A stretch of 64,000 nt of DNA from Opisthocomus hoazin (taxonomy: Eukaryota; Chordata; Aves; Opisthocomiformes; Opisthocomidae): positions 11,927,001-11,991,000 of the forward strand of contig NC_134427.1 of the NCBI RefSeq assembly GCF_030867145.1, given 5' to 3'. The position numbers and the translations under genes were made by a program. Positions 1 through 25,974 of this stretch are shown here, in pieces (positions within the stretch are counted from its first letter, which is position 1; each line of letters opens with the position of its first letter). Below the pieces are notes generated by a model. The model did no database searches. It was not told where the DNA came from and was given only the letters and a program-made list of their open reading frames with translations.

Positions 1-2345
<2,345 letters not shown>

Positions 2346-4110: not shown

Positions 4111-4640
4111 GGCACAGGGTGGCTTTTTCCCACAGGGGGGATGTCTCACTGGGCGCAGCTGGATTTCCATCTCGTGGGGGTGCTGGGGCTCAGCTCTGCG
4201 GGGCAATGGAGGCAGCTGTGGGACGCCGGCACCGATACCCCCCAGCCCGGGCACGGCTGCAGCGCAGTGCCCGGTGAGGAGGGGCCCGTCCCTGGAGATG
4301 GGGAGTATGCTGCTGTGGGGCTGGGAACGGGCCCCACACATCCCCTGGGCATGCGGGGCAGCTCGGTGAGAGCTGGAGGGTGTCCTGCCAGCCCGGACCG
4401 CCCGGCAAGTGACGTGTGGGGGGATTTCCTAAGGTCTTTGAGGGGATTTAGGTGCACAAGTTGTCCTGCGTTCCTCTGCGTGCTCCTAAACCTCTTAGAT
4501 AATCCCCTTTAAATAGCAAGACTAGGGCAGCGTGGGATTTATTTTAAGCCCTTTCAAAACCAGATTTTATGGTCGGGTCTTGGACTCTGTCCTCATTCAG
4601 AAGCGTTTAAAGCTGTCGTTCTTCCCAAAGGGATCATTTT
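4111..4640. other. Intergenic spacer PRRG3 - FATE1-like
   Basis: About 0.5 kb between the PRRG3 poly(A) signal and the CpG island. A TATA-like string (tttaaatag near 4508) lies about 0.5 kb before the candidate first-exon donor, but nothing ties it to a start site. No repeat or coding sequence was recognised. Confidence 0.5.
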
Positions 4641-5620
4641 ATCGCTGCCGGCTCCGCCGAGAGGCAGGAGGACGGGGGTGCGCTGAGCCCCCGCATCGGG
4701 GCGTGGGCTGGTCCCCGGGCTGCGGGGGGGGACCTGGGGCCGCTCCGCGGTGGGCTTCTGCCCCCCGGTCTTGCCCCTGGCAGGAGCAGTCCTTTCCCTC
4801 GGGCCAGCTTCTTACCCCGGGGAGCAGTGCTGGGGGAGCCGACCTGCGGGCGGGGGGTGCCCGCTGCCCCCGGGGGGGGGGATGGGCCGCGCTGGTGAGT
4901 CGCAGCTCGTTAATTACCGGGCTGCGGCTTTAAGCGCGGCGGGCGGGCTGCCGGGAGGGCGGGTGTCCCGGGCGTGGCTGTTTACGGGTCCGGCAGCGGC
5001 CTCGGACTGCAAAAAAACAGAAGTAAGTGCCCCCCTCAGTCCCGCGCTTTGCGAGCCGCACAGCCGGTGGGTGCGGGGCCGGGGCTCTGCGGGCAGCCTC
5101 GGCGGGGGAGCGCGTCCCGGGGTTGGAGACGGGCCGGGGGCCTCCCCGGGAGGGCGTGGGGCCCTCCGCGCCCTGGGGCCGCCCCCCGCCCTGCTCCCGC
5201 CCCGCTCCCACCCCGCGGGTGGCCGGCTCCTCTCGTTTCTCAGCCCCGCCGCGATGACCGGAGCCGGGGAGCCGTGTGCGGGACCCCAGTGCATCCCTGA
5301 GCGGGGGTCGCGGGGGGCAGGGGGGCCGCCCGGGCTCTGCCCCCCCCCCCCCCCCCGGCTTGGCTGTGGCAGGCGGCAGGACCCGAGCCGGGTGACCAGA
5401 CCCGTTCCCCGCTCTGCCGAGCCCAGCGACAGCCGAAGCCGAAGGGCAGAGCTCCTCCAGCGAGGGCTGCTCACGCCGGCACCCCGGCCGGGGCGAGGGG
5501 GGGTCCTGGGCCCGGCTGGTCCCCCCCAGCCTGGCGTGGAGCACCCTGGGCTGCGGGTCTCCTTCGCCAGGGCACGTTTTGTCGCCTTGCGGGACTGAAA
5601 CCGACCCTCAGGCGGGGTGT
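4641..5620 (+). promoter_or_regulatory. FATE1: CpG island, likely promoter and first exon of the FATE1-like gene
   Basis: About 1 kb of very GC- and CpG-rich DNA with several GC-box-like strings (gagggcgggtgtc), long G runs able to form quadruplexes near 4720-4880, and a 17-C tract at 5340-5356. A consensus donor (cagaa|gtaagtgc) at 5023 is a good candidate end for a noncoding first exon. The next coding exon on the + strand begins at 8122 and belongs to the MFF/FATE1-like gene, so the island most likely drives it. Initiation sites cannot be read from sequence alone. Confidence 0.6.
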
Positions 5621-8088
5621 GCTGGAAATCCCCTGTCGCTGCAAATCCCCGGAGAAGTGCCAGAGCGGAGGCTGAGACGCAGTCTTCTTCCGCCGGCGAG
5701 GGGGGGTGGCTTGGACCTGGCTAGAGAAAGCCCTAAAGAAAGTTAAAGGAGGAAATCCAGCCACTTAAGCGATTTGTTCTTACGGGTTTTGACAGCTGAT
5801 TTTTTTTTTTTTTCTTAATAGCTGAGTCTCTCAGAGCCTGCTGCTCGTTCCCCTCCCAACCCTCTGCTCTTTGGGAGCTGTGGAAGTTTCATAGGTGATT
5901 AGAAAGTGAACTGATCTGCCCTTTCCAGATTTATTGTTATTAATATATGCTGGTTTCCCGGAGAGCAGGCTGAGGAAGCAGCACAGGGTGTTCGTTCACC
6001 TAAAGCACCAAAAATATGAAGGAGGAACCTGGTGTTCTCCATGGTTGTGGACCGTGGGGCTGGAAGTCTGACGCAGGTTTCTCCTCTGGGACCAACACCA
6101 CTTTGGGACCGTCCCAGGATGTATTGCCCCACTCCCGAGTGGGGGGGTTCCTGCAATAATCCACTTTATTTGAGGTTTTGGGGGAGAAGCAGGGCACTTG
6201 TGCTGTGACACCCATGGGCTGGTGTCACCTGTGCCAGTCCTGAGCCTGGGCAGGATGGTGGAGAGAGTGTGGGGCAGCTGGGGGCTGCTGTGCCCCTGCA
6301 TGCCATGCCTGTGGGGCAGACGTGGCTGCAGAGCCGGGGATCTCGTCTCTGTGTGGCTGAAAGCAGGAAATCACCGCATCTGATGCCGGGCAAATTTCTG
6401 TCTCTTTTAATTAAAATGCTTTTAATGACAGAGGAGGAGAGAGCAGCGCGAGGCGGCTGATCACTGGAAATGCTGGTTATTGCAGACGTGGAGCTGGTTC
6501 TGCCACCCTCGTGTACCTGGAGTTACAGGGCCTGGCTGCTGCAGGGGATGGGATCGGTGGCTCTGGGGCCGCGTCTCTGGTGGTGCTGCTCCCTGGGGAT
6601 TCCTCTCTGCTCCTCTCCCTGGGGTGATATCGCAGGGGGCTGGTGCAGATGAGAGGGTCCAGAGCGCCCCGAGAAGCAGCAGCAAGGGTGGTGGTGGGCA
6701 GCCATGGCTGCTGCTGGGTGGGAGCAGCCTGGTGGGCTGGAAATGCAGTGTCAGACAGCTGGCTGCTAAATATAGTCCCCAGACGTGATCAAAGAAGTCA
6801 GGGCCCCTGCACACTCCCACTCACTCGCCTCCTCCCATTTCACCCGCTTGAGCTTTGAAAAGGAAAACCTCTCCTTCCCCCGGCTGTTTGGGCTGTGCTG
6901 TACCCAACAGCCCCTCTTACGGTGGAGATTTTGACCTGGAAGCCAAAGGGGACCTTTTTGGGCATGGCGAGCTCAAAGGGCGCAGCAGGGAGGGTGCAGG
7001 GGGGCTGTGCATGCATGCGGGACGCTGGGGTCTGGCTGGGGTCTGCAGCCTCAGCAGCCCTCGCTTGTTGGGGTTGTCTCCTTGGCTGCAGCTTTCTGAG
7101 AAAGAATAAAGAGTGCACATGCTAGGAGTGAGCAAGGTGTTTTTTGGGGCTCCTCTCCCAAAAATGTACGTGGTTTGCCCTCTGCTCACATCGCTCAGTG
7201 AAAGTGTTGGGACATTGTGGCCCCAGAGCACTTCTTAAAGCCCTGGGGCTGGGCAAAGGGGAAACTGAGGCACGGGGCTGTTGTGCGCCCTGAGAAGCTG
7301 CAAAGCCCCAGAGAATGTCCATGTCCTGCTCCTGCTGTCGGCTGCGCTGGGAGCAGTGACAGCTGGGGACTGTGTCCCTCCTCGTGCCAGTCCCCTCCTG
7401 GGAGAAAGCCAAGCTGGCGCTGGCCTGGGGGAGCGGACGTGTGCTTTTCCCTCGGCTGTGGGAGGAAGGGTCAGTATCTGGCAGCCCTGCTTGGGGCGAA
7501 GTCCATCTTGTTCAGCCTGGTGTGAGTCACTTGAGGAGATCGGGTGGGGAATTGCCTTCGGGGTATTGCCCTGTGGGACACTGCAGCAAAAGTGTGTGTG
7601 GAGAAAGAGCTTATTGCTCAGCTTTTCCTGTGTTAACCTGGAATCTTATTGCCAAAACCTCTGTTTTGTTTTTCAAAAACTTCATTTTTCCTATATCAAC
7701 AGAAAAATATGCTCCCAACCCTCCAAAAAACTTTACTTCTGGATAGAAAAGAATTTTTTTTTTTCATTAGTTCTAGGGTATACTGAATTGCTCTTCTCCC
7801 ACTAAGCTCATGCTTTGCTCCCAGGGCAGGTAGGACCTTTCTCTTTTCTCACCCTGCTGAGTAGGGGTTCCCACCTGCAGCGGCCCCATGCCCTTGTCCC
7901 CACCAGCCAGGCTTCGTGGGACACCCCGTTCTCTGGGACACCTCCAACGGTGTCTGTCTTTTGGGTTGTTTCTGCCTGTATTTCAGCTGTCGTATAGCGC
8001 TTGTGTTGTCCCTGTGCAGGTTCCACTTTGGAAGAGCTGCTTGCTACCGCTTTCGCTCAGCTTTCTTTTCCTCTGTGTGAAACCCCAG
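5023..8088 (+). other. FATE1: FATE1-like intron 1 (candidate)
   Basis: Stretch between the candidate first-exon donor in the CpG island and the acceptor before the first coding exon (tttcttttcctctgtgtgaaaccccag, exon from 8089; an alternative acceptor opens at 7987). It contains a T13 tract at 5801-5813 and an AT-rich patch around 6400-6430, but no coding exon or clear transposon. Confidence 0.45.
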
Positions 8089-8121: not shown

Positions 8122-8314
8122 ATGTGGCCATTTTGGGGACTGGACCTGAACCGAGCCCGCTGTGACCTGCTCTTCACAGAAGCCATCAACCAAAGGATGC
8201 AGGTTCCCAACAGGCTGAAGGTAGCAGATAGCTTCAGCCCTGTGGATGAGGAGCTGACGGAGGATGTCCCTCCTTCCCTTCAGATGCACATCCCTGATAG
8301 GATTTCTCTTGCAG
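8122..8314 (+). CDS. FATE1: FATE1-like coding exon 1 (two DRP1-receptor-type repeats)
   Basis: The ATG sits in an A-rich context with A at -3 and an in-frame stop at 8104. The exon codes residues 1-64 and ends in phase 1 at gcag|gtaatg. It holds both MFF-type repeats, each with an M-x-(V/I)-P-x-R core. This half is missing or unrecognisable in mammalian FATE1. Confidence 0.88.
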
Positions 8315-11300
8315 GTAATGTCCTGGGTTGTCTTTTGGGGTGACTGAAGGTTGGTGGGGCTCTACAGCATCCTAGGGAGTAGGATCCCTTTAGAACGTCC
8401 GCAGTGGTTTGCTTTTCAAGAGGAGAGGGCAGGGACAGATTATGTAGTCAGCTTTCTTCTGGAGGTAGGACAGGATGGTGGAGAGATGCTTGGGGAGAGG
8501 TGGGCAAAGGTGACCAACAGAAGGCAGGAGGGGTCTTGGCTCTGGAAGGTGAGGAGCAAAATGTGGAGGCATCTCCCTCCACATCTCTTACAGTTTCTTG
8601 GCCTTTGGTAGGCTCCCTGCTCTGGGACGCAGAGACATATGGCCCTGTCTCTTTGATAAACAGCTCCCAAACCTCACTTTCCTGGAGCATTGCATCCAGT
8701 TGCCTTCCACTCCATGCCTCTCTGGGCTATCCCACTGCTCACACCTGCAGGACATGGTTTTTGATGCACATCTGGTAATACTAGACATGGGGTTGGCTCT
8801 CTTATGTGGGTGGATCTCTTGTCTCCTGTCCTGAGGTCATTCAGGTTAGTCTTTCTCTCCTCTCTGTAGAAATATCAGATGCCAGTTTGAGGCCCATCCT
8901 GCTGAACCAGCAAAGGAAGGTCCCCTCTGTCGTGGTGCACATGTCCCCGGACTCCTCTGTGCAGCCAGCCTGCCTCGGGGAGCTCCCTTTCCTGCACGTA
9001 CCCACCAGATCAAGCTCCCAGAAACGCAAGCGATTGGTATGGTATAGAGAGCGGATGGGGCTGCCTGTGGTGGGAAGGGGGAGTAATCCCAGCGTTTGGT
9101 TTCTCTGGAGGTTTGTTATCAGCCCAAGCCATGATTCATCTTCCAGCATTCCACCTCCTCATAGGAGGTTCTAGGAGTCCTAGGAGCGTGGGTGTAAGGG
9201 TGGTGGGATCTTTTTCTGGCCCCTAACCAGTACACACCTGCATGCTAGGACATCGATTCAGCCAGATCTCCTACTGCATTTTGTGAGCAGGAGATAGGCT
9301 GAGGTAGTTGCAGTCCCCCCATGACTTCCTTCTGCTGCTTTTAAAATCCCTTTTCAACCCGTTTCTCCTGGATGAAGTACGAGACGGAACTGTTTCATCA
9401 TTGCAGCGTAAAGGGTTCTGCTGTCAGGGCTGAAAGCAGATTTTAACCTTGTGTGAACCTAGTTCGAAGAGAGGCCCATGACACGGGCAGGCAAAGGCTT
9501 GGCTTGGCTGTGGGAGCTGCTGATCTGCCTTCTCAAGAGCTTTCACCTCTCTGAGGTTCAAGAGCTGTTCCCGGATGCGTTAGGTTCAGGAGTTTTGATC
9601 CGAATAGAGATCGGATTGGCAGGCTCCTTGCTGGTGACCCTTGCCCTGCCCCGAGCATGTCTCCCTGCCTGCTCCAGCATCAGCTCACCAGGTTTGGCAC
9701 TGATGTAAGGCTCCCACACGGAGTGCTTTCCCCATGCTGACGGGCCACTGGCACTGCAGATCACGCAGGGCACTGGGCTGGGCTCACCCTTTGCAGGGTC
9801 TCTGCACTAACACCGTTGTGTTTGGTGCCAACAGGGCCATCACAGCAGCAGGTCGCGGCGGGAGAGGATTTCAAGTGACTGTGCCCAGCTGGCCTTGCAC
9901 AGCCTGGGCCAGCACCACAAGCGGTGAGCACGAACCCCGAGCTGTCTGGGGTGGGTGGGATCAGCATCTGCTGTCGTCTGTGCTGCTTTGATACTCCCTG
10001 GTGTCAGTGCCCCGAGGTGGGGATACCCAGCTCAGGGCAAGGCAGCGCCTCGCAAGCCCTACTCTTGCACGAGAGGAACGGGGCTTCTGGTGTCAGGGAG
10101 GTTTGTGCCAGGCAGCACTGAAGGCAGCTGGTGATGAGCTCTCTGCGAAGATGCGTGTGGGAGAGCACGTCCCCTCTTGCAGCAGGCTGGGAGGGCTGTC
10201 AGTCCCTGCCTGGCCTTCGGGCCAAGGGGACCTTGCTGGCCACTCTGGCTTGTCTCGGTCTCTCTGGCTCTGCCCGTCTTCCTCTCGGTACTGTGCTCTC
10301 CTGCACCAGCACAGCAGAGTGCTGGGGGTATGGGTGGGTGGCCACTCGCAAACGAGGCACCAGGGCTTAATTGGGTTTCTACAAGCGTTATTGAAACTTG
10401 GGCTGCCTTGCAGACAGGGTGGGCTGAGAGCACGCTTGGTTTTCAGCTTTTTGAGCATAGCCTGTGAGCAGAAACACGGTGATAGTGCTCTGGTAGATCA
10501 TCTCATCATGAGATGATCTGCTCATGGCCTTGGGCTCCAGAGTCTCTCCAGTGGAGAAATTGTCTCTAACTTAATCCCCCGGCAGAGCCACTTTTCCCAC
10601 TGAAAGTCCAGGGTTGTCCTGGGTGGCAGGAGAGCTGCCTCCTGCAACCCCTGTGGGAGCAGCTGGTGAAGGTCTGGTTATGCCACAGCCATGGCTGGCT
10701 TCGGAGGAGTCGGGTGACTGCCTGTGAGCCTGTGAGCTGCTGGCGGAGGTTCTCCCACCTGGTGACATGGGAGTTTGGGTGCTGATGACATTGCCCAGAG
10801 GCGCTTGGAGCTGCTGAAGGGATGAAGGGCACCTCCAAATGCCAGGCTATGTCCATGCTGTACGAGGCCAGGAAGTAACAGGCGTGACTGTGTGTGCATC
10901 CCAGGCCGGACGCGTGCCCCCTGCCCGCCCGCAGTGCCCCGCTCCCCCTGCTTGCGGAGACGGGCAGGATCTACTCCATGCAGAACATCTTCCAGACCAT
11001 GTACCACCTGGGCCAGGTGCTCTTCCACCGCGTCCAGGACTCTCTGCAAGACCCGGTGCCATCCAGGTGACTTCAGCTCGCCGTGAGCCACCTCCCTGTC
11101 ACTCTGCAAGGACTTGGCTTTGCCTTGCTAAGGTGTCAGCTGGGCACGAGCTCTGCAAGCTGCACGGTGCAGCAGCAGGGTGGTCCTGCGTGGCTGCCTC
11201 AGACTCTCCTCCTCACTTGGCGTGTCAGGAGCGCCTGGCACAGCCAGCCTGGGTGCACCCTGCTAACCCAGCCCAGCTCGTCTCTCCTGCTTAACTTAAC

Positions 11301-14300
11301 ACCGGTCCCCCGGGTGCTCCGAGTGATTGAACACCGCCTGCGATGCTGCTGGGGTTTCAGCTGGTCCTCACTGCTAAGCAAGTGCTGGTTTTTATGCGTG
11401 CCTTGATAGCTTGATGGAGAGAAATGTGTGAAGGGAATCAAAACCCAGAACAGATGGCCTGACGCGGGACCTGTCCCCGAGACCCCGTCTCCTGCAGGCT
11501 CACAGCACCCTTGGCTCTTAATTAACCTTTTCCACTAACTGGCTGCACTGAGTTACTCATGCTGTAGCTGGTGCCCCTGGCCAGGGTGCAGTATGCCTGT
11601 GTGCTCACCGGAACAGGTATGCAATGACCTCAGTCTCTCTGGAGCAGCTATCTCCACTACGCTCTTATCTGTGCAAGTGCAGTAAAATTTTAACATGTTC
11701 AAAGACATCATTGCAGCCTTAAGGTGTCCCCACTGCTCTAAGGCTGCTGAGCACCCGGAGGAGCTTCCGAATGCTTCTAATTCTCCCTGAGCAAAGCCTG
11801 CAGGCAGAAAGGGAGGAGAGTGAGCATCCATCACTGGTGCCATCAGCGGCAAGTCCTGCCTTCCCTCCCCAGCTGGCTGGAGGTGCGGGCAGCAGAGCTG
11901 CCTTCTGCCTGCGGACGATGCAGGGACGATGTCCCTGCTTTTAACCAAAGCAGGCTGACTGATCATGAGGAAGAACTTCTTCCCTCTGAGGGTGACGGAG
12001 CCCTGGAACAGGCTGCCCAGGGAGGCTGTGGAGTCTCCTTCTCTGGAGATATTCAAGACCCGCCTGGACGCGGTCCTGTGCAGCCTGCTCTGGGTGACCC
12101 TGCTTTGGCAGGGGCGTTGGACTGGGTGACCCACAGAGGTCCCTTCCAACCCCGAACATTCTGTGATTCTGTGTCTTCAAATGTCGCTTGTTTTTTTAAT
12201 GAAGTCTGGGCGTGCCAACAGATCTGGTTAGTGGCTACGTAAGACCTTCTCCCTCCTCCCATCAGCAGTAGAGGAGGTTTAGGCCATGGTACAGTGAGAG
12301 GTGGTAGCTTGCAGAGCTGCTGTAACACAGTCTGGTGAGTCCCGGGTCTCGATCTCCCTTTGAGGCCAGCCACCTTGAAACACCTCTGCTTGGTATTTTG
12401 CATCATATCAGATGCATACGGTATCTCTTTGATGTGACAACTTTATACCCATATGCAACATTAGAAAGTTGACTGAGCTGACTTGTTTGTCCTGCAACTT
12501 TATTAAAGTCTGGTCTTGGATAGAGACTGGAATAACTGCCTGACAGTGACCTCTTGAAGGTTATGAGTCATCGAAAGGTAATTTCTAGTTTCTACTCTAA
12601 AGGTTCACCTGTATCAACTGGGATTTTTCAGTTAAAAGCTGCAGGATGTGTCCCTTTTTAATGGTTCTGTGCTGGGGGAAATTGGATTTTCTTTCTGTTG
12701 CAGCTTTCGTTTTACACTGCAGCTACATTACGTGGAGGTTTTATCTCACAGATGTATTTTCAGACAGAGATTTGCTGAATCTCCACGCGCTGTTCTGGCT
12801 TGTCCTCAGTGAGATCAACATCATGTTGCAAACAGGAATAAATACCCTCCCCTCCCCAAGGTCTCTAAAGGAGCTGTGTTAGACACTCGTTAACCCGGAT
12901 GGTGTCCGTGAGGGCCCATGCGAGTTACTGGTCTGCACAGGGGAGTTTTGATTATAGAAGAACTGATGTAGGGCTGGCCTATGATGATAAGAACAACAGA
13001 GACCGAACGTGGTAATTTTGATTTTTTTTTTTTTTTTTTTTTTTTTTCTCACTATGGATCTATTTTATTTTGTGGCTTGGTGCTGTGGGCCCTGCAGCAA
13101 GGCTGTGTCTCTGGGGGATGCCCTGGAGACCCATGGTCTGTGTTGCCTCTGCCAGTGCAGCAGCTAGTCCCAGTGGTGGCCCCTTTGTTTCCAGGGATGG
13201 AAGAAAGTAATGTGTGCTTGGGTTGCTTGTTTGTGTTTCGAGCTGTGGGTAAAATTTGCTGTAAGAGCAAAAAGTGATACTTTTTTTTTGTTGAGGGGGG
13301 TGGGGAAAGTAAGCTTGTGGTATCTGGAGATACTAGAGGGGAACAAATCCTTGTCTCAGCAAACATGGAACCCTTTTCCGCTGGCTGATGCGCTTGCTCA
13401 GACAGCTTGCCCAGTTGATGGCTGCTTCCCACCAGTGGGATTCTCACCTGCTGATGTAAATGAGATCATCCCTCCATTTTGGCATTGGTCCTGTGATATG
13501 TATTTTCCTGACTGGCTCTAAAGATGATTTATCCAACCCTCAGTGAATTCCTCTGACTACAGCAAATGGATGGTCAGTAAATAACATGTTTTCTCTCCGT
13601 TGGACCTCTAAAGAAATGCAAGCACGCATTTTCCCTGTTGTCTGTCATGGCATGTGCTGCATGTTTTGTTGTGATCACTACGGGGTGCATGGTGGAGGGG
13701 TATAAATATTCATGACGGGGGTTAAGAAGAATGAGTAGGTGCTGTGCAGGTGCTGTTTCCTCTCTCGTGATGCTGCATCCGGACAGCACATCCTGGGCAT
13801 GCACACACTACCTGCATGGCTCGGCTGCCCATGGCAGTGCCGTGTGTGCAGGAAGGCAGTTGCACCTTTTGAGCACTGTTTGTCCGTCTGCATCTCTGTT
13901 TCTCTTCCCAGCTCCCAGGAGGCTGGCCCAGCCCCAGACAGTGCCTTGGAGGAGGTCGGGGTGGCTGAGATGGCAGCAATGAGAAAGCAGGTGAGATGGG
14001 GGTGAAGAGCTGCAGATGTTTGCTGGGAAAGCCAGGGGAAGGTGGGTGAGGAGGCTCCAGGGGTCCGTTGCTCAGTCCTGATGGGCTGGCATTGCCAGGC
14101 TAGTCCTGGCTGATGCTGCTAACAGGGAAGCAAGGGGGAACTTGCATGTGTGTTGACCCATCAGTCTTCTACCCTAAGGGGCTGTCGGGCTGCAGGAGAC
14201 AGCCAGAGCCCTCCATCTGCTGGCAGTAAAGGGCTCAGATGCTCTTCTGATGGCGAGGACCTTTTCCTGAAGCATCTGCTCAGGAGCTGAGGTAGTGCTG

Positions 14301-14569
14301 CTAATTCTTGCGCACAAAGATAGCTGCTGCTCTGGGAATGGAGGACCTGAAGGAGACGGCAGCTCCCATCCCTTGCTGTCCCATGCCTCTGGGGTGTAGC
14401 CAGTGTCCTGACAGTGGTCCCACTGCTTCCCTTGCAGCTGACGAGGATCTCGGGGCGGCTCCGCGTGCTGGAGGAGCAGTGTCATGCCTGGCAGCAGAAG
14501 GAGGCCCTGGTCTACTCTGTGCTGATCTCCGCCTGCCTCATCAACACATGGCTCTGGCTGAGGAGATGA
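8122..14569 (+). CDS. FATE1: FATE1 counterpart with full MFF-like architecture
   Basis: Six coding exons (8122-8314, 8870-9036, 9835-9923, 10905-11066, 13912-13990, 14438-14569) join with matching phases into 822 bases, giving 273 residues plus stop. Seen: residues 18-35 (FTEAINQRMQVPNRLKVA) and 54-64 (QMHIPDRISLA) repeat the two N-terminal motifs of mitochondrial fission factor. There is a basic patch (QKRKR) near 115-119, an RRERISS site near 129, a predicted coiled coil at about 213-250 and a C-terminal membrane anchor at about 253-270 ending LWLRR. Known: MFF is a tail-anchored outer-membrane receptor that recruits the fission GTPase DRP1 through its N-terminal repeats. FATE1 is a shorter mammalian relative at ER-mitochondria contacts. 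The coiled-coil/anchor block resembles human FATE1, and the position between PRRG3 and CNGA2 is that of FATE1. An in-frame TGA 18 bases upstream fixes the start. Role in fission is inferred. Confidence 0.85.
8870..9036 (+). CDS. FATE1: FATE1-like coding exon 2
   Basis: Acceptor ttctctcctctctgtag and donor ttg|gtatgg bound 167 bases, phase 1 in and phase 0 out. It encodes residues 65-120: a linker with ISDASLRPILLN followed by a Ser-rich stretch that ends in the basic patch SSSQKRKRL. It corresponds to the MFF segment before the AMPK-site region. Sequence identity to MFF is weak here. Confidence 0.8.
9835..9923 (+). CDS. FATE1: FATE1-like coding exon 3 (RERxSS segment)
   Basis: An 89-base exon (acceptor ttggtgccaacag, donor gcg|gtgagc), phase 0 in and phase 2 out. 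It encodes SRSRRERISSDCAQLALHSL followed by GQHHKR. It aligns with the MFF region around RERSMSENAV and a later Trp-His-Arg stretch, which carry the AMPK phosphorylation sites of mammalian MFF. Whether the Ser pair here is phosphorylated is inference. Confidence 0.8.
10495..10519. repeat. Perfect 12-bp inverted repeat, 1-nt spacer
   Basis: AGATCATCTCAT and its exact reverse complement ATGAGATGATCT flank a single C. It lies in the intron between coding exons 3 and 4 of the FATE1-like gene and has no known function. Confidence 0.9.
10905..11066 (+). CDS. FATE1: FATE1-like coding exon 4 (no long ORF around it)
   Basis: This exon is too short for ordinary ORF listing and was found by phase: it must begin by completing CG| and end in AG|. 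Acceptor gtgtgcatcccag and donor ccag|gtgact bound 162 open bases. It codes residues 150-203, including ETGRIYSMQNIFQTMYHLGQ, reminiscent of the MFF segment around GILSLIQSSTRRAYQQ. The total coding length is divisible by three only with this exon included. Confidence 0.78.
11963..12173 (+). mobile_element. CR1 LINE 3' end
   Basis: About 210 bases match the conserved CR1 3' terminus. It runs gaggaagaacttcttccctc, gagccctggaacaggctgcc and gtcccttccaacc, and closes with two tandem ATTCTGTG octamers at 12158-12173. The copy is 5'-truncated, as almost all CR1 insertions are, and keeps no reverse transcriptase. Its low divergence makes it the youngest transposon seen in the window. It lies in sense orientation in an intron of the FATE1-like gene. 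Confidence 0.93.
13022..13047. repeat. T26 homopolymer tract
   Basis: Twenty-six consecutive T in the last long intron of the FATE1-like gene. It could be a simple repeat or the tail of an antisense retro-insertion, though nothing recognisable adjoins it. Confidence 0.9.
13912..13990 (+). CDS. FATE1: FATE1-like coding exon 5 (coiled-coil start)
   Basis: A 79-base exon behind a strong acceptor (ctgtttctcttcccag) with a consensus donor (cag|gtgaga). It encodes residues 204-230, ending ALEEVGVAEMAAMRKQ. This matches the FATE1 segment SLEEFNVLEMEVMRRQ and the MFF segment DAASLRRQ, the beginning of the coiled coil. Confidence 0.85.
14438..14569 (+). CDS. FATE1: FATE1-like terminal coding exon (coiled coil and tail anchor)
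   Basis: Residues 231-273: LTRISGRLRVLEEQCHAWQQ, then the hydrophobic anchor ALVYSVLISACLINTWLW and LRR-stop. Human FATE1 has RRLRALEEQ with an anchor ending LWLW, and MFF ends LWFRR, so the bird tail combines features of both. The short basic C-terminus after the anchor is typical of mitochondrial tail-anchored proteins. Confidence 0.92.
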   Translation: MTRISGRLRVLEEQCHAWQQKEALVYSVLISACLINTWLWLRR

Positions 14570-22700: not shown

Positions 22701-25700
22701 CAATGCCAGCCACCCCCTGCGTCGCTGCTCTGGGCTTGGGCATCCCCTCCCGGCGCTCCCACTGATTTGCAGCACACTTTACTTCCTGGTCTAATTAATC
22801 TTCTGTTAGAATCTGTCTGGCACCAAACCATACCTCATCTGGGAGAGGCAATGTTGTGTAACAAGATGTTTTCTGATCACCCTCTTCCATACATCTGTTT
22901 CTGGCTCTGCTATTGGGGTGCTGTGTCTATGTAGGACACCTGCTTTGCCTTACCATTCTACAGTTTCCTCTTCTGGTATATTACCAAACGCAGTTTTGGG
23001 GATAAAGGAGTTTAGACGACGTCCAGCAGTGCAGGGATTTGTTTTAGCTTACAGACTGGCACTCAAGCTGCAGCTATGTTTGAGCCAGTCTGGTGCAAGG
23101 GATGAAGGATGTGACTTGGATGGTTTCTTCCAACCCTGTTTTCTATGTTTAGCTCTTTATTCATACGTTTCCAGCTGTGGCTTCTCTCTGCTTCCAGGAA
23201 GAAGTGGCAGATCTTTGTGGTGGACCCTGCAGGGGACTGGTATTACCGTTGGCTGGCTGTCATTGCAGTTCCTGTCCTCTATAACTGGTGCTTGCTCGTA
23301 GCCAGGTGAGCTGGAAGGCTGTAGGGTCCCTGTCTCCTCTAATCCTCCTGTTCAGCTGGTTGTCATGGCTCAGCCAGGATCAGGCAACTGACCCTGGTGG
23401 TTCTGGGGCTGGTGGGAACCTAAAGGAAAGCGACTCCCACTAGCACTGCGACTTCTGTGGTTCAAAGGCAGAGCATCCATCCTCTGGCCTCAGTTGGAAA
23501 GGACCATGATTTTGGGGTAAAGCGGCAAGATGCATTTGGGGAGCTGGTTTCAAGACATTGCTTAACCTCGGTCAAGAGAGGGCAGATTTTTCAGAGAAGG
23601 GGGTTTTAATTTCTAGGAGAAGAGGGTCAAGCGGCCAAGCTCTGTTGCAGAGTTAGGAGCCTCAGAATCAGCCTATATTCAGCTGTAATAGTTGGAGACG
23701 ATATGGAGATTTGTTGGTCTCACTACCGTATTATATGACCTTCCTCTAGGGCTTGCTTCAGTGACCTGCAAAAGACCTATGTTGTCCTCTGGCTGGTGTT
23801 AGACTACATCTCGGACTCTATTTACATTGGGGACATAGTGATCCGCCTGCGCACAGGTAAGCAGAAGCAGCATCCCGGCTTGTGAGTGCTTTGCTTTAAT
23901 CGCCTAAAAGCGGAGATGAGCTGCAAGGGGGACGCCTAATCTACAGCTCCGTAAGAAGGAGGGTTTTGTCTACCTTGGCACTCACTAGTACGAAGCAGTC
24001 TCCAGCGAAAGAATCTAATTGAAAGATCTGAGAAACAGAGTAAGTTTCAGAATGAAAGATTAATCATCCAAGCTTTCAACTTCACCTTTGAATAATTGTA
24101 CAAAATTACCCGCGTTACTGTTAGTATTTGGGCATAGTTGAAGGTCTGTATCTCTGATTTTGCATCAGTTCAGATAATGAATTATCTGCATGGAAAAACG
24201 GTAGAATTTAATGTTCTCAGAATGTGGCAGGTGGCTGTATGTTTTCTGTTGAAACTGCAATAATTCATGATCTGGAGGATGGAAACCTTTGTGTCCCCAT
24301 TTCTTCGTGGCAACAGAGTAAATCCCTAAGTGATATCTTTAGGTGGCTTTTGTTGGATGAAGGGCTTGAGTGATGAAAAAAATCTTGTAAACTGAGTAGA
24401 TCAGGTGGAACTGGTAATATTTGGATGACCCTGTGTATATATGCACACACATGCATGGCATACCATAAAATGTTTCTCAGAAGTGCTTACAAAACCCGCA
24501 GAAGAATTGAACACAAGCCAAGATAATTCTATCATTTGCTTCTCTGTTAGGTTTCTTGGAACAGGGCCTCCTGGTTAAGAACCTGAAGAAGTTACGAGAT
24601 AACTACATTCACACCTTGCAGTTCAAGCTGGATGTTCTCTCTATCCTGCCCACAGACCTGGCATACTTTGCTGTGGGATTGCACTACCCTGAATTGCGTT
24701 TCAACAGGCTGCTGCACTTCTCCCGCATGTTTGAGTTCTTTGATAGGACTGAGACTAGAACCAGCCACCCCAACATCTTCCGCATCAGCAACTTGGTTCT
24801 TTACATCCTGGTCATTATCCACTGGAATGCATGCATTTATTATGCCATTTCCAAGGCCATAGGCTTTGGAGAGGACAGTTGGGTCTATCCCAATGTCACA
24901 GACCCTGAGTATGGGTATCTGACCCGGGAGTACGTCTACTGTCTCTACTGGTCTACACTGACTTTGACTACCATCGGAGAGACCCCTCCCCCTGTGAGTG
25001 ATGAAGAGTATCTCTTTGTGATCTTTGATTTCCTCATTGGCGTCCTCATCTTTGCCACCATTGTGGGGAATGTGGGATCCATGATATCCAACATGAATGC
25101 CACCAGGGCAGAGTTCCAGGCAAAAGTTGATGCCATCAAACACTACATGCAGTTTCGCAAGGTGAGCAAAGACATGGAAACCAAAGTCATCAAGTGGTTT
25201 GACTACCTGTGGACCAACAAGAAGGCAGTAGATGAAAGGGAAGTCCTCAAGAATCTCCCTGATAAGTTAAGGGCAGAGATTGCCATCAATGTTCACCTGG
25301 AGACACTGAAAAAGGTGAGGATTTTTCAGGACTGTGAGGCGGGTCTACTGGAGGAGCTGGTGCTGAAACTTCGCCCTCAGGTGTTCAGCCCAGGGGATTA
25401 CGTTTGCCGGAAAGGAGACATTGGGAAAGAGATGTACATCATCAAGGAGGGGAAGCTGGCCGTGGTGGCGGATGACGGAACGACACAGTATGCTTTGCTC
25501 ACTGCAGGAGGCTGCTTTGGTGAGATCAGCATCCTCAACATTAAAGGGAGCAAAATGGGCAACAGGCGCACAGCTAACATCCGTAGCCTGGGCTACTCTG
25601 ATCTCTTCTGCCTGTCAAAGGAAGACCTTATGGAAGCAGTCACAGAGTATCCTGATGCCAAAAAGGTCTTGGAGGAGCGTGGCCGGGAGATTCTCATCAA

Positions 25701-25974
25701 GGAAGGGCTGCTGGATGAGTCAGCTGCAGAGGCAAGCACGGAAGGGCAGAGTGTGGAGGAGAAGATGGACAGGCTGGCCTTGAACCTGGAGACACTGCAC
25801 ACCCGCTTTGGCCGGCTCCTGACAGAATACAATGATGCCCAGATGAAGCTCAAGCAGCGCATCACTGTTCTGGAGTCCAAGATGAGGCAGCAGGATCTGG
25901 AGGACTTCTTCTCTGATAGCTCAGACAGTCTGCTTGAGGATGAGGAGAAAGCTTTACCTGGTGGGATGCAATGA
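19706..25974 (+). CDS. CNGA2: CNGA2, olfactory cyclic nucleotide-gated channel alpha subunit
   Basis: Seven coding exons (19706-19784, 19952-19970, 20022-20132, 20661-20831, 23198-23305, 23750-23856, 24551-25974) give 2019 bases and 672 residues (664 in human). Seen: an N-terminal calmodulin-site region ([15 protein letters not shown], residues 70-84); S1 after [10 protein letters not shown]4 region [17 protein letters not shown]; pore [11 protein letters not shown] with Glu342; S6 and C-linker [13 protein letters not shown]; a cyclic-nucleotide-binding domain at about 461-575 with FGEIS and RRTAN (Thr539); and a C-terminal coiled coil at about 599-645. Known: CNGA2 is the principal subunit of the olfactory transduction channel in sensory cilia, passing Na+ and Ca2+ when cAMP binds. 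The text ([40 protein letters not shown]) is closer to CNGA2 than CNGA1 or CNGA3. No frameshift or premature stop is seen, so the gene looks functional. Confidence 0.96.
19952..19970 (+). CDS. CNGA2: CNGA2 19-nt microexon (inferred)
   Basis: The first exon ends in phase 1 but the next homologous exon opens in phase 2, so a connecting exon is needed. The 19 bases between acceptor cctgcttcctccag and donor gcag|gtgcca have the right phases and encode VRLAAGR across their junctions. With them the calmodulin-site Trp falls at residue 81, the number it has in rat. An alternative donor in exon 1 is possible. Confidence 0.5.
20022..20132 (+). CDS. CNGA2: CNGA2 exon with DDTSSELQ
   Basis: Acceptor tttcctgactgcag and donor ccag|gtacct bound 111 bases, phase 2 in and out. 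It contains DDTSSELQ, identical to mammals, then a low-conservation linker rich in Gly, Gln and Ala. It lies in the cytoplasmic N-terminus. Confidence 0.85.
20661..20831 (+). CDS. CNGA2: CNGA2 calmodulin-site exon
   Basis: It encodes [14 protein letters not shown], then [16 protein letters not shown], which is nearly identical to mammals, and an acidic run [12 protein letters not shown] before S1. It ends in phase 2 (aaaaa|gtaggg). The acidic/Lys run replaces the mammalian Gly/Asp/Lys-rich linker. Confidence 0.93.
23090..23150 (+). mobile_element. Degraded CR1 3'-end remnant
   Basis: The string gacttggatggtttcttcca followed by accctgttttctatg resembles the CR1 terminus (ttggatgatct, ccttccaaccc, ttctatg). 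It is short, lacks the octamer pair, and is only suggestive. Confidence 0.35.
23198..23305 (+). CDS. CNGA2: CNGA2 S1 exon
   Basis: [20 protein letters not shown] followed by [15 protein letters not shown] is the first membrane segment and its lead-in. Acceptor ctctgcttccag, donor ccag|gtgagc, phase 2 in and out, no gaps against mammalian CNGA2. Confidence 0.95.
23750..23856 (+). CDS. CNGA2: CNGA2 S2 exon
   Basis: [20 protein letters not shown] and [15 protein letters not shown] form the S1-S2 link and S2. Acceptor ccttcctctag, donor acag|gtaagc, phase 2 in and phase 1 out. Confidence 0.95.
24551..25974 (+). CDS. CNGA2: CNGA2 large terminal exon (S3 to C-terminus)
   Basis: One 1424-base exon carries S3-S6, pore, C-linker, nucleotide-binding domain and coiled coil, as in all CNGA genes. 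It starts in phase 1 (G|GT) after acceptor gcttctctgttag; the first in-frame codons are Gly-Phe-Leu-Glu and not an initiator. The pore GET motif, Cys460 in the C-linker and Thr539 in the binding site are conserved. The end, [20 protein letters not shown] and two more residues, is more acidic than in mammals. Confidence 0.97.

Follow-up and report, generated by a model that had tools for sequence, protein, structure and literature searches.

A six-exon gene between PRRG3 and CNGA2 in the hoatzin keeps the layout of mitochondrial fission factor and is probably the orthologue of FATE1

In mitochondrial fission factor (MFF), the N-terminal region with the repeats R1 and R2 has been described as the minimal DRP1-binding part, and an R3 is named as well (PMC10057413); the comparison presented here covers R1 and R2. 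MFF lacking its N-terminal 100 residues is still found on mitochondria and leaves MAVS distribution and antiviral signalling unrestored in MFF-null cells; the authors consider the N-terminal region critical for fission too (PMC7658986). Human FATE1 reaches mitochondria via a coiled coil and a tail anchor and suppresses apoptosis, and the tails of FATE1 and MFF have already been reported to be 29% identical (PMC4660212). FATE1 has also been described as a spacer between the endoplasmic reticulum (ER) and mitochondria (PMC5832420). Here we describe a gene of the hoatzin, Opisthocomus hoazin, located at 8122-14569 on the forward strand of a 64,000-nucleotide stretch of DNA (positions 11927001-11991000 of contig C14; 'the window' denotes this whole stretch). 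The most likely origin of FATE1 is a second MFF gene, one that has been kept whole in the hoatzin. What is added to the known identity of the tails is a full-length sister gene, a common intron plan and the evidence of paralogous blocks. In the literature searched we found no paper on a full-length MFF-like FATE1 or on FATE1 as a paralogue of MFF; automatic database annotation may exist.

Six exons with GT-AG borders (GT at five of five donors, AG at five of five acceptors; Table 1) splice into a single open frame of 273 residues, with no stop and no frameshift in 273 codons. A gene of this size and structure had been proposed in an earlier, sequence-only reading of the window, and the splice sites and the frame bear this out. 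The Pfam family Miff (PF05644, curated cut-off 23 bits) matches residues 8-273 along profile positions 3-291 of 291 (E 1.9e-28, 100.5 bits). Fragments of the protein are recognized as well: residues 1-171 alone give an E value of 2e-12 and the last 59 residues 1e-13, while exon 1 alone (the first 65 residues, 4.5e-12) and exon 6 alone (2.3e-8) both pass the cut-off; exons 2-5 alone have no Miff match.

The human sequences of MFF, FATE1, PRRG3 and PRRG1 used for comparison throughout were entered by hand. R1 reads INQRMQVPNRLKVA in the window protein and ISQRMRVPEKLKVA in human MFF, with 10 of 14 residues identical, a result equalled by none of 5000 shuffles of the protein. The placement of R2 (MHIPDR) opposite MQVPER of MFF rests on the exon alignment. 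The hydropathy peak comprises residues 253-271 and is followed by RR; the coiled coil, as judged by homology, is present. All four motifs pointed out in the sequence-only reading (QRMQVPNRLKV, MHIPDR, RRERISS and the terminal LWLRR) occur in the product, and the layout claimed there, with both N-terminal MFF repeats, a coiled coil and an anchor ending in LWLRR, is confirmed by the extent of the Miff match, the exon alignments and hydropathy. Having the family's profile score, R1 and R2 repeats, a C-terminal coiled coil and a single tail anchor, the window protein is, on its amino acid sequence, MFF-type from end to end.

MFF proper resides elsewhere in the same genome. A whole-genome Miff search produced at least seven exon matches, five on contig C4 (10612901-10632008) and two in the window gene; no Miff locus besides these two was found among the matches, whose counts are lower bounds. 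In the C4 gene eight coding exons were read, which encode 330 residues from an internal ATG (278/328 identical to human MFF). In this one gene model, intron 2 apparently starts with GC (GCTAGT) and not with GT, at C4:10614161, the end of exon 2.

The six exons of the window gene correspond, in order, to MFF exons 1, 2, 3, 5, 7 and 8, and each of its five introns has an equivalent in MFF with unchanged phase (1, 0, 2, 2, 0). Sequence fixes the place exactly for two introns, the first (after VVA/SLA) and the fifth (after LRRQ/MRKQ); introns 2, 3 and 4 are matched by their order, their phase and the lengths of the exons. Identical lengths are found in the two genes for exon 3 (89 nt) and for the last exon (132 nt). 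The two additional exons of MFF (75 and 63 nt) are both of phase 2 to 2 and thus can be skipped without a change of frame. For the exon pairs of the window gene and its own MFF, the numbers of shuffles (out of 1000) scoring as well were 0, 354, 89, 4, 6 and 0 for exons 1 to 6; for single exons locally aligned with human MFF they were 0, 597, 256, 156, 182 and 0. Given the poor scores of exons 2 and 3, both are placed by the plan and not by sequence. A retrocopy of MFF is excluded by the intron plan. MFF has in common with the window gene the R1 repeat, the R2 core, the coiled coil, the RR-ending tail anchor and five same-phase introns; it differs in its contig, in its two extra exons, in sequence (25-31% identity) and in keeping its own Ser155, Ser172 and Lys151.

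Human FATE1 (183 residues) matches Miff at profile positions 222-290 only. Scans for R1 and R2 did not find them in this protein (of 5000 shuffles, 1000 and 3935, respectively, did equally well), and its residues 1-123 have no likeness beyond chance to the N-terminal parts of the window protein or MFF (scores equalled by 346 and 1306 of 2000 shuffles); unlike the window protein, it ends in NQ, not RR. The two proteins resemble each other in the tail: over the last 60 residues the window gene is identical to human FATE1 at 28 positions and to either MFF at 19, with the two MFFs identical to each other at 57. When human FATE1 was searched against the whole genome (four matches in total, E up to 10), the window gene was the best match with 33.5 bits, and MFF and two unrelated-looking places followed with 16-19 bits (second best 19.4 bits). 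A separate FATE1 gene in the genome, a result that would have spoken against the sequence-only reading, was not found in this search.

Of the three possible quartets, the one that groups the window gene with human FATE1 and own MFF with human MFF is ahead by 28.7 log-likelihood units, with P ∼0.0001 in the approximately unbiased (AU) test for both alternatives; the branches leading to human FATE1 and to the window gene measure 0.64 and 0.19. The possibility that the window gene is MFF proper, or a recent copy of it, was rejected, as the AU test speaks against its pairing with either own or human MFF and MFF is present separately on C4. If the two MFFs are orthologous, the quartet implies that the split from MFF precedes the split of birds and mammals.

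The window gene also has the expected neighbours. It is flanked by PRRG3 and CNGA2, both identified in the window; FATE1 is located between these two genes in mammals, in line with the claim of the FATE1 position. The PRRG3 pieces are 84% and 69% identical to human PRRG3 versus 69% and 28% to PRRG1, and the large last exon of CNGA2 scores 899.7 bits against the solved CNGA2 structure, versus 787 against CNGA3 and 764 against CNGA1.

The sequence-only reading had further suggested that FATE1 comes from a second MFF gene and that mammals lost the N-terminal half. The former is supported by the quartet, the common intron plan and the paralogous blocks described below. The latter holds for the one human FATE1 sequence compared, in which neither repeat and no Miff match ahead of profile position 222 was found.

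Relatives of three gene families lie together on the contigs C1, C4 and C14. COL4 C-terminal domains form three pairs (24/24 matches) at C1 69.88-70.16, C4 10.45-10.60 and C14 19.61-19.83 Mb; each pair is adjoined by one of three IRS open frames of > 1200 codons (C1 69.72, C4 10.36, C14 19.86 Mb), and the remaining 17 IRS-domain matches are scattered over many contigs. All 31 of 31 matches of glypican exons fall on the same three contigs. MFF starts 11 kb beyond the COL4 pair of C4, and the window gene is on C14, a contig of 27.1 Mb in an assembly of 1482 Mb (1.8%). The distribution of COL4, IRS and glypican relatives is the pattern expected of a pair originated by whole-genome duplication. 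As a separate observation, the C4 glypican exons form two clusters (1.52-1.58 and 1.97-2.16 Mb; C4:1522619-2160700), as on C1 and C14, which suggests a second glypican gene on C4.

In MFF, Lys151 is a SUMO site and Ser155 and Ser172 are AMPK sites; the sequence LKRE printed for MFF residues 150-153 agrees with the numbering used here (PMC11451547). These sites regulate MFF and are not part of the Pfam definition of the family. Exon 3 of the window gene aligns without gaps with MFF exon 3, so that Arg128 stands at Lys151, Ile132 at Ser155 and Ser134 opposite MFF Ser157; MFF Ser172 aligns with Lys149. The RRERISS stretch, claimed earlier to lie where MFF carries its AMPK sites, is indeed in the right region, but the acceptor residues are not kept. 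Conservation of the AMPK sites was therefore rejected by residue alignment. Only residue 37 fits a simple AMPK pattern and it does not correspond to an MFF site; since the AMPK sites of MFF itself fit the pattern only partly, the alignment of residues carries more weight.

The window protein keeps the N-terminal part, the coil, the anchor and the final RR, from which we infer a second DRP1 receptor. If expressed, the protein would be placed by its tail anchor and final RR in the outer mitochondrial (perhaps also peroxisomal) membrane, the coiled coil would mediate pairing, either between its own copies or with MFF, and R1 and R2 at the N terminus would bind assembled DRP1, creating a second fission receptor. 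With the AMPK and SUMO acceptors of MFF replaced, the protein is not expected to answer to that stress switch. A second DRP1 receptor free of AMPK/SUMO control is thus a plausible role, as far as can be predicted from sequence.

Taken together, we consider it probable that the window gene is the orthologue of FATE1, that FATE1 is an ohnologue of MFF (most probably a product of the genome duplications early in vertebrate history), and that the hoatzin gene has kept the whole MFF layout and with it the mechanism of a second fission receptor. Several observations weigh against this interpretation. The regulatory residues Ser155, Ser172 and Lys151 of MFF are replaced. Taken singly, neither exon 2 nor exon 3 can be recognized by comparison with own MFF, and the same applies to each of exons 2-5 in the comparison with human MFF; R2 is weaker than R1, and when human R2 was used for a scan, the first hit was R1 and not R2 itself. 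The quartet is unrooted and comprises 60 columns with two human sequences. As to the blocks, the window gene is situated 7.7 Mb from the COL4/IRS block of C14 and does not adjoin it, the whole-genome Miff search left C1 without a third match, and two families are without the three-contig pattern: BRICHOS (four matches: C28, C4, C28, C1) and CNGA, represented by the CLZ domain (four matches: C1, C5, C14, C1).

Some of these observations fit another explanation, to which we assign a minor chance: with the gene history unchanged, the bird protein would no longer usefully recruit DRP1 and would act, like FATE1, as a spacer or survival factor at the mitochondrial surface, R1 and R2 being a fading relic. 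Such a role would agree with what has been described for FATE1, namely spacing between ER and mitochondria (PMC5832420) and an anti-apoptotic action at mitochondria (PMC4660212). The replacement of the three regulatory residues, an overall identity to MFF of just 25-31% and an exon 2 changed beyond recognition point in the same direction. Against it, R1 has kept 10 of 14 residues since the split of MFF and FATE1, an event older than the split of birds and mammals, while exon 2 drifted unrecognizably; this difference indicates selection on the DRP1-binding part and argues for the receptor.

The distance of 7.7 Mb and the missing third Miff match on C1 would also suit a separation of MFF and FATE1 by an ancient tandem or segmental duplication instead of a whole-genome duplication. 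We regard such an origin as unlikely, though worth keeping in mind, given that COL4, the large IRS genes and the glypicans all share the three contigs and that C14 makes up so small a part of the assembly.

A decayed pseudogene, whose exons would align by ancestry, is very improbable in view of six intact exons with canonical splice dinucleotides and an uninterrupted frame. Hardly credible is an MFF duplication confined to birds or sauropsids whose product landed beside CNGA2: such a product would be a Miff gene and would show the intron plan of MFF, as is the case, but pairing with own MFF is strongly disfavoured by the AU test, own and human MFF share 57 of the last 60 residues where the window gene shares 19 with each, and the gene occupies the FATE1 position.

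Table 1. Coordinates of the window gene, its parts and neighbouring features
Feature	Position in window	Strand	Evidence and remarks
Coding exon 1	8122-8314	+	start, R1, R2; open reading frame and GT donor; Miff E 4.5e-12 alone; pairs with MFF exon 1
R1, INQRMQVPNRLKVA, residues 22-35	8185-8226	+	10/14 identical to human MFF R1
R2 core MHIPDR, residues 55-60	8284-8301	+	opposite MFF MQVPER in exon 1 alignment
Coding exon 2	8870-9036	+	GT-AG; phases 1 to 0 like MFF exon 2
Coding exon 3, 89 nt, contains RRERISS	9835-9923	+	length and phases (0 to 2) match MFF exon 3
RRERISS, residues 128-134	9856-9876	+	opposite MFF Lys151/Ser155, gapless exon alignment
Coding exon 4	10905-11066	+	counterpart of MFF exon 5, phases 2 to 2
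Coding exon 5, coiled coil start (by homology)	13912-13990	+	counterpart of MFF exon 7, phases 2 to 0
Coding exon 6: coiled coil (by homology), tail anchor, stop	14438-14569	+	132 nt, as MFF exon 8
Tail anchor ALVYSVLISACLINTWLWL and final RR	14504-14566	+	hydropathy maximum of the protein (1.77), then RR as in MFF
PRRG3, upstream neighbour, two exons seen	1107-2342	+	Gla domain; tblastn with human PRRG3
CNGA2, downstream neighbour	23235-25971	+	sequence matches, including large last exon to solved CNGA2
CpG-rich stretch, possible promoter	4551-5800	.	upstream of exon 1; would belong to the window gene

The CpG-rich stretch between PRRG3 and the window gene was called by GC > 0.55 and a CpG observed/expected ratio > 0.6 in overlapping windows of 200 bases. 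Ahead of the ATG (8122), a plausible splice acceptor ends at 8088; through it, an untranslated first exon located in this stretch could be spliced to the coding part. A simple scan for SF-1-type sites found none near the window gene (the four in the window are at 24851, 48212, 50257 and 60297). Within intron 4, positions 11940-12175 are presumably the end of a CR1-like retroelement. Three fragments of GABA-receptor exons, used as a further check of synteny, were not matched anywhere in the window at E 1e-3; accordingly, CNGA2 is not seen to be followed by GABRE, as in mammals, within the 38 kb at 26000-64000. Rfam gave no match in the whole window, and a sequence search of the PDB with the 273-residue protein gave none either. 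A search for relatives of this protein returned 2 stretches in viral contigs and 66 in genome contigs that matched its pattern, none of which was confirmed by tblastn.

The origin of FATE1, a cancer-testis protein, has been unclear; these results provide it with an ancestry as the sister gene of MFF, and they suggest a testable second DRP1 receptor. One may go further and propose, tentatively and at somewhat less than an even chance, that vertebrates had two ancestral MFF-type DRP1 receptors, that the second lost the AMPK/SUMO switch and became independent of stress, and that in mammals it lost its DRP1-binding head to become FATE1, maybe a natural antagonist of fission receptors. If this is true, a headless MFF that is still seated in the membrane and still pairs through its coil could explain the anti-apoptotic and spacing effects reported for FATE1. 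For human FATE1 the prediction is a loss of DRP1 recruitment with retention of the anchor and the coil, so that its role in cancer cells may be tested as interference with MFF.

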